Shown here: positions 18,864-25,101 of the stretch, piece by piece
Position numbering within the stretch: the stretch's first letter is position 1
How the letters are laid out: each line of letters starts with the position of its first letter
Origin: Lachnospiraceae bacterium
Lineage (GTDB): Bacteria; Bacillota; Clostridia; Lachnospirales; Lachnospiraceae
DNA: 64,000 nucleotides
Direction of reading: 5' to 3'
NCBI GenBank assembly: GCA_021201665.1
Contig: JAJQEO010000071.1
Coordinates: 1 to 64,000, forward strand
Notes under the pieces: model-generated
The model's database searches: none
What the model was told of the DNA's origin: nothing
The model's input: the letters and a program-made list of their open reading frames with translations, nothing else
Made by a program: the position numbers and the translations under genes

Positions 18864-19340
18864 TCAACGCAGGCGCTGTTTAAATTCCTGCTCTGCCTCG
18901 CGCCTCTGATCCTTTTTCGCAATGTCCTGACGCTTGTCATAGAGCTTTTTGCCCTTTGCAAGACCAATCTCCACCTTTACAAGGCTTCCCTTAAAATATA
19001 CACGCAGCGGAACCAGAGTGTAACCTTTCACGGCAATCTTCCCTGCCATACGCCCGATCTCCTGCCTGTGAAGGAGCAGCTTTTTCACCCGGAGCGGATC
19101 CTTGTTGAAAATATTACCCTTTTCATAAGGACTGATGTGCATTCCGTAAATCAGCACCTCTCCATCCTCAATCCGCACAAAAGACTCCTTGATGCTGCAT
19201 TTCCCAAGGCGCAGAGACTTTACCTCCGTGCCATGCAAAGCAATGCCGGCCTCATAAGTCTCTTCTATAAAGTAATCATGGTATGCTTTTTTATTATTCG
19301 CAATCAGCTTGATGGATTCTCCCATTTTTTTGCTCCTCAC
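18864..19340 (-). CDS. smpB: SsrA-binding protein
   Basis: [32 protein letters not shown]...[29 protein letters not shown]. Confidence 0.96.
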
Positions 19341-19404
19341 GCAGACCAGGGCGATGTTCTATGAAAAATTTCCTTCTTATTGGCGTGGGCTTTAGCCGTC
19401 ATCA

Positions 19405-19444
19405 CAAAAAGAAAAGGGACTTATGCTTTCCTGCATCAGTCCCC
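19405..19444 (-). terminator. rho-independent terminator downstream of secG
   Basis: GGGACTgATGC..GCATaAGTCCC stem followed by cttttcttttt on the minus strand. Confidence 0.6.
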
Positions 19445-19452
19445 GCCGTTCG

Positions 19453-19689
19453 TTAAAAACTCAGATTCAAAACAACCGCAAATACGATTAAGGCAGCTGC
19501 AAGCCATTTTGTGATTTTAACGATATTTCCTTCCATGGAACGCGATTTATTCTGGCTCCAGTAGGTATTGCCCATACCGCCGATCGAGCCAAGACCCTCG
19601 TCCTTCCCCTGCTGTGCAAGAACAAGCACCGTCAGAACTATGCATATCAATATAAAAATCACGGTCAGAATAATTCTCAGTATTGCCAT
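19453..19689 (-). CDS. secG: preprotein translocase subunit SecG
   Basis: 78 aa, two TM segments, VLAQQGKDEGLGSIGGMGNTYWSQNKSRSMEG. Confidence 0.92.
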   Translation of the reverse strand: MAILRIILTVIFILICIVLTVLVLAQQGKDEGLGSIGGMGNTYWSQNKSRSMEGNIVKITKWLAAALIVFAVVLNLSF

Positions 19690-19902: not shown

Positions 19903-21165
19903 TCACAAATCAATCCCACAGGAAGCCGCCAGTCCCAGGGAATCCTCAATGTGCAGCAGCCGGTTATACTTTGCCGTCCGCTCAGCTCCTCGCGGAGCCC
20001 CGGCCTGGATCTGCGCGGCTCCGGCAGCGACAGCAAGATCCGCGGCAAATGTGTCCTCCGTCTCCCGATGGCAACAGGAAATTACTGTCCTGTAACCATT
20101 TTGCCTGGCAAATTCTGCAAGGGCAAGCATATCCGTCAGCGTACCAGCCTCGTCGGCATTCATTCGAATCGCATTGCCCGCCCCTGAACAGATCCCCCGT
20201 GCAAGCCGTTTCCGATTCGTGTGGAAAAGATCTCCGCCGACCAGCTCTACCCTCCCTCCAAGGCGGTCTGTCAGCATTTTCCAGCCATTCCAGTCATTTC
20301 CGTCCAGGCCATCCTCCAGAACACGAATCGGATATGTCCGGCAAAGCCCCTCAAGATAAGCAATCATCTCTTCCCGGCTTCTGCAGATCCTTCGTCCGCT
20401 CCCGGCGCTTTCTCCCGCAAACACATAACAATCCGAGGATTTCTCATACAGATTCCCGGCCGCCGCGTTCAGCCCCAGCACGACATCCTCCCCGGGCTGT
20501 CCTCCCGCTCTTTGGACAGCCTCCAGCACCAGTGAAAATGCCTCCTTCGCATCTGTCAGCTCCGGCAAAAATCCTCCCATCTCACCGGTCGCAACTGAAA
20601 GCTTTCTCTCCAGCAGGATGTTTTCCATCTCCTGATAAACCCTCACGCACGTCCTCAGTCCCTGTCCATAGCAGCGCATCCGCACAGGCATGATCAGAAT
20701 CTCCTGAAAATCCATAGTGTCCGCAGCAGAGGGATCCCCACTTAAAATACTCATCATCGGGGCCGGCAAAGTACACGCGCCCATCCCGCCGAGATAGCGG
20801 TAAAGCGGCTGACCCAGAGTCTTCGCGGCAGCAGCCGCCAGCGCGAGCGAAACCCCGGGTGCCTCTCCGTGGTGACTGAGAATTCGGTCAAGCACGGCCT
20901 GTTCATATATATTTTCCCCTATCAGCACGCCTGAGAGCACTGTATTCACAAAATGGCAGACATCCGAAACATCCTGTTCCCCACCGCACGTCTTATCATC
21001 CGGACAGGTTTTTGACCCGCACGGTCGACAAAACGCCCTCTGGGGAAGCACGACCCTTCCAATGCTGCCATCTTCCGTCATAACCTCTACTTCCGCCGCA
21101 GGAAGCCCTCTGGAATCCAGAACCTCCCGCGCATATACGTCAGCCACAGGCATATCATTGCACAT
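19903..21165 (-). CDS. catalytically degenerate enolase homologue
   Basis: Clear global enolase similarity (DVYAREVLDSRGLPAAEVEV..LEDGLDGNDWNGWKMLTDRLG..AKYNRLLHIED) with active-site substitutions. Confidence 0.9.
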   Translation of the reverse strand: MCNDMPVADVYAREVLDSRGLPAAEVEVMTEDGSIGRVVLPQRAFCRPCGSKTCPDDKTCGGEQDVSDVCHFVNTVLSGVLIGENIYEQAVLDRILSHHGEAPGVSLALAAAAAKTLGQPLYRYLGGMGACTLPAPMMSILSGDPSAADTMDFQEILIMPVRMRCYGQGLRTCVRVYQEMENILLERKLSVATGEMGGFLPELTDAKEAFSLVLEAVQRAGGQPGEDVVLGLNAAAGNLYEKSSDCYVFAGESAGSGRRICRSREEMIAYLEGLCRTYPIRVLEDGLDGNDWNGWKMLTDRLGGRVELVGGDLFHTNRKRLARGICSGAGNAIRMNADEAGTLTDMLALAEFARQNGYRTVISCCHRETEDTFAADLAVAAGAAQIQAGAPRGAERTAKYNRLLHIEDSLGLAASCGIDL

Positions 21166-21240
21166 ACTATTCCCTCCTTACCTGTGCAGCCTGCGGAAAC
21201 GATCTGCGCCGTTTCCTTTCTATAGACCGTGTATGGGGTC

Positions 21241-21324
21241 CATCCCGCCAGGGCGGGGCGAACCGGTCAACGCCGTCCACGAAATCATTCTGCGTGGGAA
21301 CCCATCCCGCCAGGGCGGGGCGAA
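21241..21324. repeat. two direct copies of catcccgccagggcggggcgaa (62 nt apart)
   Basis: 21241-21262 and 21303-21324; each contains a CCCGCC..GGCGGG hairpin. Confidence 0.93.
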
Positions 21325-21547: not shown

Positions 21548-23404
21548 TTAATCAAACTGGCTGTTGTAGTCCTCAAATCCATCCTCGAAGCCGTCGTCAA
21601 AGCCTTCCCCGAAGTCTTCCTCAAAGTCATCCTCTGAATCATCGTACGGAAGGGTACCAATTTCGCCTTCCCCATTCTGATTCTCGTTCTCATCAGGAAT
21701 AGCCCCTTCCTGGGAATCCTCCTGGTCCTCTTCCTCAGAATCATCCGCTTCAGAAGAGGAGCCTGCCTGAAGCGTCACCTCGACGTCGCGCGCCTCGTAG
21801 ACGCCATTATTCGCCGTCTGGACTTCCAGTGTAATGGTCTCGCCCGGCGCGTAATAGCTCATCTTTTCAATCAGCTCTGTCGAGCTTGTAACGCTCTCTC
21901 CCTCAATCCCGGAGATAATGTCGCCGCTCATAATACCCGCCTCGTCCGCGGCGGAGCCTTCAGTGACCTCATATACAAAAGCGCCGGCCGGCATATTATA
22001 GGTCTCAACCGCCTCATCTGAAACCGTCAGAACCGTCGCGCCGATGTAGCCACGCTCCGAATCGCTCAGCTTATCCCTGGTCTCCTTATTAATCAGCTGC
22101 TCCAGAACCGGGATCGCGTCATCAATCGGGATCGCGTAAGCCATCCCCTCCGCGCCGTCTCCGCTCTCCTTAGCCACGCCGATGCCGATCACTTCACCGG
22201 ACGCGTTCAGAAGCGCGCCGCCGCTGCTGCCAAGATTCGCTGCCGCGTCTGTCACAATCACTTCCATAGTGACTCCGTCCACCTCGACCTCACGGTCCAG
22301 AGCGCTGATCACACCCACCGTCACGCTCTGTCCATAGCCCAGTGCATTACTGATCGAGATCGCCGCCTGTCCGATCTTCAGATCCTCCGAGCTGCCAAGC
22401 GTGGCAACACTGAGCTGGTCAAGCACTGAGTCCTCGATATCGGAAAGCTCGACCGCCACCACAGCCAGATCTGCGGAAGAGCTCGTACCCTTGATCTTCG
22501 CGGAGACCGTCAGATCATTCTCATCCTCTGCCTCTACAGTAAAGCTGACCATCACGCTCTCGGCATCGCTCACTACATGGTAGTTCGTCGCGATCAGAAG
22601 CTCCGAATCACTCTTCGCAATAATAATACCGGTGGCTGCCGTCTCCACCTCTTCCGTGACCTCTTCGTCAGAATAATAATAGAAATAATCAGAATCCTCA
22701 TCCACAGAAACGGTTTCCTCTGATACACAGGTAATCGTCACAATCGAAGACATACACTGCTCAACGATCGCCGAAACATCCGTTGTCACGATCCCACTGA
22801 CCGTCGTGTCATCTTCGGAGGCGGTGCTCAGCTGAATGTCCTCAGAATCTTCAGCATCCTCAGCGGCATTCTCTGCCGCTTCTTCGGCGTTCTCCGCTGC
22901 CTCTTCTTCGGTATGATCCTCTTCGGCTTCTGCATCCGAAGAGGAAGCAGTCTCCGCTTCTGCATCTGAATCACCTGCATCCGCTGATGCTTCCACATCG
23001 TCATCGGAGGAGGCCGAGCCGCCTCTGTTCAGCGTCACTCGTTCGGATTCCTCAGACTGCGTCTCCTCCGTTTTTGAGGAAGTCTCCGCAGCCGCCTCCG
23101 TGGAGTCCTCGTTCTCATCCATCGACACTTCGTCTGCCTGCGTCTCCCCTGTGCCAGACGCGTCTTCCTCTACCAGAGTTTCCTCAGCACCGGAAGTCTT
23201 TTCAGCCGCCGCGCTCTTCTCCTCGTCCGTCTGGTCATCATCGTCTGTCACAATATTCAGCGTCACGCGCTGCGTCTCTTCTGTCTCCTGCGCGCTGACC
23301 TCTTTCAATGCACGCAGAACGCCGGATTCTGCACACACGCCTGTCAGCACCGCCAGCGACAGCGCCACTGCGCCGTATTTTTTCCATTTCTTCATAGCAG
23401 CCAA
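21548..23404 (-). CDS. trypsin-like serine protease with PDZ domain (HtrA/DegP family)
   Basis: TATGIIIAKSDSELLIATNYHVV...VTDAAANLGSSGGALLNASGEVIGIG plus PDZ; long acidic low-complexity N- and C-terminal segments. Confidence 0.9.
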   Translation of the reverse strand: MAAMKKWKKYGAVALSLAVLTGVCAESGVLRALKEVSAQETEETQRVTLNIVTDDDDQTDEEKSAAAEKTSGAEETLVEEDASGTGETQADEVSMDENEDSTEAAAETSSKTEETQSEESERVTLNRGGSASSDDDVEASADAGDSDAEAETASSSDAEAEEDHTEEEAAENAEEAAENAAEDAEDSEDIQLSTASEDDTTVSGIVTTDVSAIVEQCMSSIVTITCVSEETVSVDEDSDYFYYYSDEEVTEEVETAATGIIIAKSDSELLIATNYHVVSDAESVMVSFTVEAEDENDLTVSAKIKGTSSSADLAVVAVELSDIEDSVLDQLSVATLGSSEDLKIGQAAISISNALGYGQSVTVGVISALDREVEVDGVTMEVIVTDAAANLGSSGGALLNASGEVIGIGVAKESGDGAEGMAYAIPIDDAIPVLEQLINKETRDKLSDSERGYIGATVLTVSDEAVETYNMPAGAFVYEVTEGSAADEAGIMSGDIISGIEGESVTSSTELIEKMSYYAPGETITLEVQTANNGVYEARDVEVTLQAGSSSEADDSEEEDQEDSQEGAIPDENENQNGEGEIGTLPYDDSEDDFEEDFGEGFDDGFEDGFEDYNSQFD

Positions 23405-23559: not shown

Positions 23560-25101
23560 TCACTCATGCGTCAGCAGCGATTTGCCCGTCATCTCGGCCG
23601 GCTGCTCCATGCCCATCAGCTCAATCAGTGTCGGGACAATATCCGCCAGGCGTCCTCCCTTGCGCAGGCCGACGCCCTCGCCGCAGTTCACCAGAATAAA
23701 CGGCACCGGGTTCGTCGTATGCGCGGTAAAAGGCGCGCCCGTCTCGTAGTCAATCAGCTGCTCCGCGTTTCCATGGTCCGCGCAGATAAACAGCTTGCCG
23801 TCCATGGATTTCACTGCCTCGACCACCTTGCCCACGCACTCGTCTACGGTCTCAATCGCCTTGATCGCGGCGGAAAGCACGCCGGTGTGGCCGACCATGT
23901 CCGGATTCGCGAAATTGGTAATCACTACATCGTATTTGCCGGAGGTCACCGCGCCAACCACCTTCTCGCAGACCTCAGGCGCACTCATCTCAGGCTGCAG
24001 GTCGTAGGTCGCTACCTTCGGGGATTTCACCAGAATACGGTCCTCTCCCGGGTTCGGTGCCTCAACGCCTCCGTTGAAGAAGAAGGTCACATGCGCATAT
24101 TTTTCGGTCTCCGCAATCCTGGCCTGCGTCATATTGTGCGCCGCCAGATATTCACCAAAGGTATTCGTCACAGAAATCTTCGGGAAGGCCACGGTCTTGT
24201 TCGGGATCGTTACATCGTATTCGGCAAAGCATACATAGGTCACGGAAACCCGCGGTCCGCGGTCGAATCCGTCAAACTCATCACAGCAGAAGGTGCGGCT
24301 CAGCTCTCTTGCCCGGTCCGGACGGAAGTTGAAGAAAATCACCGAATCCCCGTCCTTTACCGTCGTCACCGGAGCGCCGTCCTTCATCACCACCGTCGGC
24401 AGGACAAACTCATCCGTCACACCCTTTTCATAAGACTGCGCCACAGCCTCGACTCCGGAGGAAGCCGTCTCGCCCTCGCCGTAAACCAGAGCGCGGTATG
24501 CCTTCTCCACGCGGTCCCAGCGGTTGTCACGGTCCATCGCGTAATACCGGCCGGATACCACGCCGACCTCGCCTACGCCAATCTCCTGCATTTTATCCGT
24601 CAGCTCCTGCACATAATCCTTGCCGGAGGTCGGCGGTGTATCACGCCCGTCCAGGAAGCAGTGCACATATACCTTCTTCAGGCCATAATTTTTCGCCATC
24701 TGCAGCAGCGCATACACATGCGTATTGTGGCTGTGCACGCCGCCGTCGGAGAGCAGTCCCCACATATGGAGGCTGGAATCGTTATTCTTCGCGTTCTCCA
24801 TCGCGCGCTTCAGCTCAGGATTTTCAAAAAAGTCGCCGTCCTCGATCTCTTTCGTAATCCTCGTCAGATCCTGGTAAACCACGCGGCCCGCACCCATATT
24901 CATGTGGCCGACCTCGGAGTTGCCCATCTGCCCGTCCGGCAGTCCCACAGAGAGACCGCTCGCCGCGCCCTGTACAAACGGGCAGGTCGCCATCAAATCA
25001 TCCATCACCGGCGTCGCCGCCTGCGCGATCGCGTTGCCCTCCGTCTTCTCATTCAATCCATATCCGTCCAGGATCATTAATACTGTTGGTTTTTTCATCA
25101 T
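23560..25101 (-). CDS. gpmI: 2,3-bisphosphoglycerate-independent phosphoglycerate mutase
   Basis: KPTVLMILDGYGLNEKTEGNAI...GNSEVGHMNMGAGRVVYQDLTRI; complete. Confidence 0.98.
   Translation of the reverse strand: MMKKPTVLMILDGYGLNEKTEGNAIAQAATPVMDDLMATCPFVQGAASGLSVGLPDGQMGNSEVGHMNMGAGRVVYQDLTRITKEIEDGDFFENPELKRAMENAKNNDSSLHMWGLLSDGGVHSHNTHVYALLQMAKNYGLKKVYVHCFLDGRDTPPTSGKDYVQELTDKMQEIGVGEVGVVSGRYYAMDRDNRWDRVEKAYRALVYGEGETASSGVEAVAQSYEKGVTDEFVLPTVVMKDGAPVTTVKDGDSVIFFNFRPDRARELSRTFCCDEFDGFDRGPRVSVTYVCFAEYDVTIPNKTVAFPKISVTNTFGEYLAAHNMTQARIAETEKYAHVTFFFNGGVEAPNPGEDRILVKSPKVATYDLQPEMSAPEVCEKVVGAVTSGKYDVVITNFANPDMVGHTGVLSAAIKAIETVDECVGKVVEAVKSMDGKLFICADHGNAEQLIDYETGAPFTAHTTNPVPFILVNCGEGVGLRKGGRLADIVPTLIELMGMEQPAEMTGKSLLTHE

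Follow-up and report, generated by a model that had tools for sequence, protein, structure and literature searches.

The resident enolase gene of this Lachnospiraceae bacterium most probably encodes a conserved pseudoenzyme, in which an enolase scaffold is selected for a binding role while a second enolase covers glycolysis; we give this reading a probability of about 0.8. The gene is a 420-aa frame with an ATG start, located in the window, the 64,000-nucleotide stretch of DNA that was analysed (Table 1). Orthologues occur in two other species, G027 and G061 (76% and 74% identity to the window protein; G000 is the window's own genome), and their locus is the same over the stretch that the contigs cover. 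All three are draft assemblies; G027 is a MAG, Lachnospiraceae bacterium MO.3_6, and in G061 the contig breaks off within the gene. Judged by its residues the window protein would not be an enolase, and judged by its constraint the gene would not be a pseudogene; neither label appears to fit.

Table 1. Coordinates of the features discussed, and residues at the 15 catalytic positions. Positions refer to the window unless a contig or locus is given; catalytic positions are aligned in yeast numbering, with residues in the order window/G027/G061.
Feature	Position or residues	Strand	Remarks
Pseudo-enolase ORF, 420 aa	19903..21165	-	ancestral gpmI-htrA-eno-secG-smpB locus
Shine-Dalgarno AGGAGG, 7 nt upstream of the ATG	21173..21178	-	read from sequence
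gpmI, upstream syntenic neighbour	23560..25101	-	dN/dS 0.014 (G000-G061)
HtrA-type protease (trypsin-like and PDZ domains), immediate upstream neighbour	21548..23404	-	
secG, downstream neighbour	19453..19689	-	
smpB, downstream neighbour	18864..19340	-	
Residues 42-66, former catalytic lid loop 1 (SGASTG region), now RAFCRPCGSKTC...	20968..21042	-	
11-residue deletion site, NKxxLGANxIL segment, about residues 102-103	20857..20862	-	alignment
G311, lost metal ligand D320, G in all three species	20233..20235	-	alignment
Residues 363-367 SCCHR; H373, R374, G376 to C, C, R in all three species	20065..20079	-	
G033 degenerate resident enolase	L102:9341-10687		
G001 degenerate resident enolase	L103:8416-9900		
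Type III CRISPR Csm1 genes	G000:C81:9607-11601; G027:C149:1134-3113		
G37	R/G/G		alignment
S39	F/P/L		alignment
G41	R/C/R		alignment
H159	S/H/C		alignment
E168	E/E/E		alignment
E211	M/N/N		alignment
D246	N/N/D		alignment
E295	E/E/E		alignment
D320	G/G/G		alignment
K345	N/N/N		alignment
H373	C/C/C		alignment
R374	C/C/C		alignment
S375	H/P/A		alignment
G376	R/R/R		alignment
K396	Q/Q/(contig end)		alignment

Catalytic residues and predicted fold

Homology to enolase spans the entire protein. It matches PF00113 (235.6 bits), PF03952 (64.3 bits) and TIGR01060, NCBI's enolase equivalog model (353.8 bits over residues 8-414, cut-off 300). The other two pseudo-enolases, L052 and L089, score 364.7 and 304.9 against the same model, also above its cut-off, and all three receive its name, phosphopyruvate hydratase. 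Pipelines using TIGR01060 will give this label to a protein whose metal site is incomplete. Identity between the window protein and the resident enolases of the genus is about 49-55%.

The gene has a strong ribosome-binding site, and no sigma-70-like promoter match was found near it. Two identical 21-bp copies of CGCCCCGCCCTGGCGGGATGG, which contains a GC-rich inverted repeat and is absent from the rest of the window, lie in the htrA-eno intergenic region (21240-21260 and 21302-21322, minus strand). Relatives, among them G024 and G018, have an RNase R gene between secG and smpB; it is absent at 19340-19453 of the window, and no RNase R above the cut-off was found in the eight genomes tested of the window's clade. 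We rejected the loss of rnr as an explanation of the pseudo-enolase because the search was negative in all eight clade members tested, including those with a canonical enolase.

An earlier note on this DNA, made by eye, had listed replacement of the SGASTG loop together with E211M, D246N, D320G, K345N, H373C and K396Q, and had described only E168 and E295 as apparently retained. We aligned the pseudo-enolase with yeast enolase and about 50 others, and use yeast residue numbers. These substitutions are real and in register, the catalytic residues are absent rather than displaced, and of the 15 catalytic positions, none of which varies among 55 canonical enolases, the window protein has lost 13 and retains only E168 and E295. 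The Mg ligands D246, E295 and D320 read N, E and G, and the catalytic residues E168, E211, K345, H373 and K396 read E, M, N, C and Q. Beyond the earlier list we found H159S, R374C, S375H, G376R and an 11-residue deletion, common to all three pseudo-enolases, in the conserved NKxxLGANxIL (LGANAIL) segment. The 55 canonical enolases share 113 invariant columns, the 15 catalytic ones and 98 others. One or more of the three sister proteins have lost 13/15 catalytic columns vs 50/98 others (Fisher p = 0.011), and all three have lost 10/15 vs 28/98 (p = 0.007). The losses are concentrated on catalysis. R414, an intersubunit salt-bridge residue, is H or C in the pseudo-enolases, and oligomerisation may therefore be altered.

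Several replacements (N345, C373, C374, R376 and G320) are fixed in all three species, as they might be if the barrel now served another reaction in a rebuilt site (with C364-C365, N336 and R367 conserved). We nevertheless consider a new enzyme of the enolase superfamily unlikely. The chemistry of this superfamily, as usually defined, requires three acidic ligands, but the metal ligand D320 is lost in three of three species and D246 in two of three; the catalytic base K345 is gone in all, and the three species differ from one another in the lid and at positions 159 and 211.

AlphaFold2, using an alignment of enolase sequences gathered here, produced a model with a mean pLDDT of 85.8 and a pTM of 0.86; pLDDT falls below 50 at residues 46-63. 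The best solved-structure matches are the enolases 9no4 and 1iyx (TM 0.89 on the query). The fold is predicted to be intact apart from the lid; because the alignment contained true enolases, the model indicates compatibility with the enolase fold and is not proof of it. Lost catalytic residues and a retained fold, here a predicted one, are what is expected of a pseudoenzyme.

Since 9no4 is a Csm/AcrIIIA2/enolase complex, type III CRISPR was checked. Among 47 genomes, Csm1 was above the cut-off in G000, G027 and G030 only. The link to the pseudo-enolase is weak and was rejected: Csm1 was not found in G061, one of the pseudo-enolase species, and occurs in G030, whose enolase is canonical. No paper on a CRISPR-enolase link was found among the open-access papers searched.

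A second enolase and the history of the resident gene

The earlier note had proposed searching the rest of the genome for a normal eno, and such a gene is present: a second, canonical enolase at C84 of the same assembly has every catalytic residue. It is 40% identical to the window pseudo-enolase and scores 427.7 bits against PF00113, vs 236.8 for the window copy in that comparison. A second gene with a complete active site also occurs in the sister genomes. To judge from these sequences, glycolysis can probably be covered by this normal enolase.

Among the 47 genus genomes searched, a subset carries a second enolase gene. The resident eno is canonical in most of these species (e.g., G010, G014, G015 and G031), and in the species examined without a second gene it is canonical in all where it is complete in the assembly; G013, G062 and G008 show a canonical resident enolase only. 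The resident gene of G063, a second-enolase carrier, is frameshifted and otherwise nearly unchanged; because its dN to G010 is only 0.000-0.003, the frameshift is very recent or a sequencing error. In G011, a third, very divergent enolase-family protein (L046; G011:C25:17681-18901; 26-33% identity) lacks E168, E211, H373 and K396 and keeps D246, E295, D320 and K345; it is possibly another enolase-like protein.

Outside the trio, all intact resident enolases examined in the genus are canonical, except in the pair G033/G001. Their copy is partly degenerate (E168G/S, E211K, S375F/Y and loop-2 insertions), and that of G001 also contains a long insertion and a single in-frame TAG. The rpoB tree places G000, G027 and G061 together (100/100) and joins G033 and G001 to the G013/G014/G008/G062 group (89/97). 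The C84-type gene adjoins sleB and thrC in G000, G061, G001 and G033, and has a different location in the other species with sufficiently long contigs; given this common position, the two lineages probably share one acquisition of the second enolase. The catalytic losses are most simply explained as independent, because different residues were lost and intact relatives lie between the two degenerate lineages. The trio forms one clade, so its three species count as one origin. Branching within it differs between the eno and rpoB trees. Its stem branch is very long (1.39 changes per column). Among 296 genomes drawn from the order, none of the other matches listed, a list limited to the best ones, exceeds 47% identity to the window protein.

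Selection after the loss

D320G, K345N, H373C, R374C and G376R, fixed in all three species, most simply arose before the trio split, so that the constraint measured among them postdates inactivation. Pairwise dN/dS across the trio is 0.12-0.24, depending on method (0.18 for G000 vs G027). Values for other genes of these species are 0.02-0.03 for the C84-type enolase, 0.014 for gpmI and, by NG86, 0.06-0.13 for the neighbouring htrA. A branch codon model written for this analysis (GY94, F3x4, 15 sequences) estimated omega at 0.066 for the background, 0.189 for the pseudo-enolase tips and 0.33 for the stem, the last uncertain because the branch is long. Setting the tips to omega = 1 was worse by 2dlnL = 237, and setting them to the background by about 59. 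The branch test was nearly unchanged on the rpoB topology, and the pairwise tests are independent of branching within the trio. Most differences among the pseudo-enolases fall at third codon positions (163/278, 185/312 and 172/323). The former catalytic lid loop (residues 42-66; dN/dS 0.47-1.37) is the sole region near neutral; all other blocks range from 0.04 to 0.44. The dN/dS comparison suggested in the earlier note thus reveals purifying selection at the protein level following the catalytic loss, as expected of a pseudoenzyme. The partly degenerate G033/G001 copy is also constrained (tip omega 0.09), despite the TAG in G001.

These results bear on whether the gene is a decaying, redundant copy whose frame is open by chance or to protect secG-smpB from polarity. 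Decay would fit the existence of a second enolase, the resident genes with a frameshift (G063) or an in-frame TAG (G001) in other second-enolase species, the very fast stem branch, and the catalytic residues that differ among the trio, so that erosion continued after the split. A pseudogene, however, should have dN/dS near 1 and stops or frameshifts, and here tip omega is 0.19, pairwise dN/dS is 0.13-0.24, and the three sequences contain no stops or internal indels, where a neutral simulation expects about 6-12 stops. A frame kept open for polarity would not restrain amino-acid changes. Decay is already largely refuted, and we regard it as very unlikely.

It is scarcely credible that the protein is still an enolase with displaced residues or residual activity, despite its equivalog-level TIGR01060 score: the alignment is unambiguous, D246 and H159 differ among the trio, so activity is not being preserved, and a complete enolase lies elsewhere in the genome. 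An assembly or binning artefact is just as improbable, even though the draft genome is in 121 contigs and its contamination is estimated at about 6%, since the same gene occurs in three assemblies and window eno, C84-type enolase and rpoB all group these genomes.

Proposed role and comparison with known systems

The earlier note had proposed selection for a non-glycolytic role. With a second normal enolase, purifying selection and catalytic residues that are absent rather than displaced, this appears to be the best reading. A second, complete enolase gene is present both in the window's genome and in the sister genomes. The resident eno has changed very rapidly: its metal ligands, the catalytic base, the H373/R374 pair and the lid are gone, and purifying selection has since maintained the remainder of the protein in the three species. 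We suggest that the pseudoenzyme was left over once a second enolase was able to take on glycolysis. The second enzyme would make phosphoenolpyruvate and carry glycolysis, and the resident pseudo-enolase would make none. What selection preserves would then be the enolase scaffold, for the sake of binding; the simplest assumption is a binding role that the original enolase already combined with catalysis. The most likely form of such a role may be scaffolding between proteins, as in a network resembling an RNase Y degradosome, or non-catalytic membership of some other complex.

It is conceivable, at somewhat below even odds, that enolase has been split here into two genes, one for glycolysis and the other for a moonlighting (or new binding) role only, and that a related lineage independently began the same split via other catalytic losses. 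If true, this would be a natural experiment separating two functions of a classic moonlighting protein. Tests for selection on enolase's moonlighting roles are difficult, since catalysis also places constraint on the gene; in the pseudo-enolase, constraint persists without the catalytic residues, and the conserved non-catalytic sites are candidates for a moonlighting surface.

No earlier report of such a pseudo-enolase was found among the open-access papers searched. Compared with enolase itself (TIGR01060; PF00113 and PF03952), the pseudo-enolase shares whole-length homology, predicted fold and gene neighbourhood, but lacks a complete metal site, the catalytic base K345, H373/R374, the lid and the LGANAIL segment.

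The enolase of B. subtilis is an RNase Y partner within a degradosome-like network (PMC8152036). Because of this precedent in a Firmicute, and because the window's genome has an RNase Y gene, a retained scaffold role in a degradosome is a fair candidate, with a chance of perhaps one in four; no RNase Y was found in the G061 assembly, possibly because it is incomplete. The B. subtilis enolase is catalytically active, and for the pseudo-enolase RNase Y is a putative partner. The trypanosomatid paralogues PGKL, GAPDHL and HXK2 are also degenerate glycolytic paralogues, or inactive alone, that are or were retained, but they derive from other enzymes, are eukaryotic, and are flagellar or glycosomal (PMC4106842).

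The nearest precedent we found is the fast-evolving archaeal enolase paralogues at an ancestral locus. Among the enolase paralogues of Thermococci and Methanococci (arCOG01169/01170), the copy in the ancestral context evolves fast while another copy keeps glycolysis, and the authors of that study infer an ancillary, non-glycolytic role for the fast copy (PMC4390880). The likeness lies in a fast-evolving copy at the ancestral locus beside a glycolytic one. The archaeal paralogues belong to another domain of life and lie in an rpo6-rpsB neighbourhood; in the present case the second copy is a divergent enolase, each loss is assigned to its residue, and the selection that followed has been quantified.
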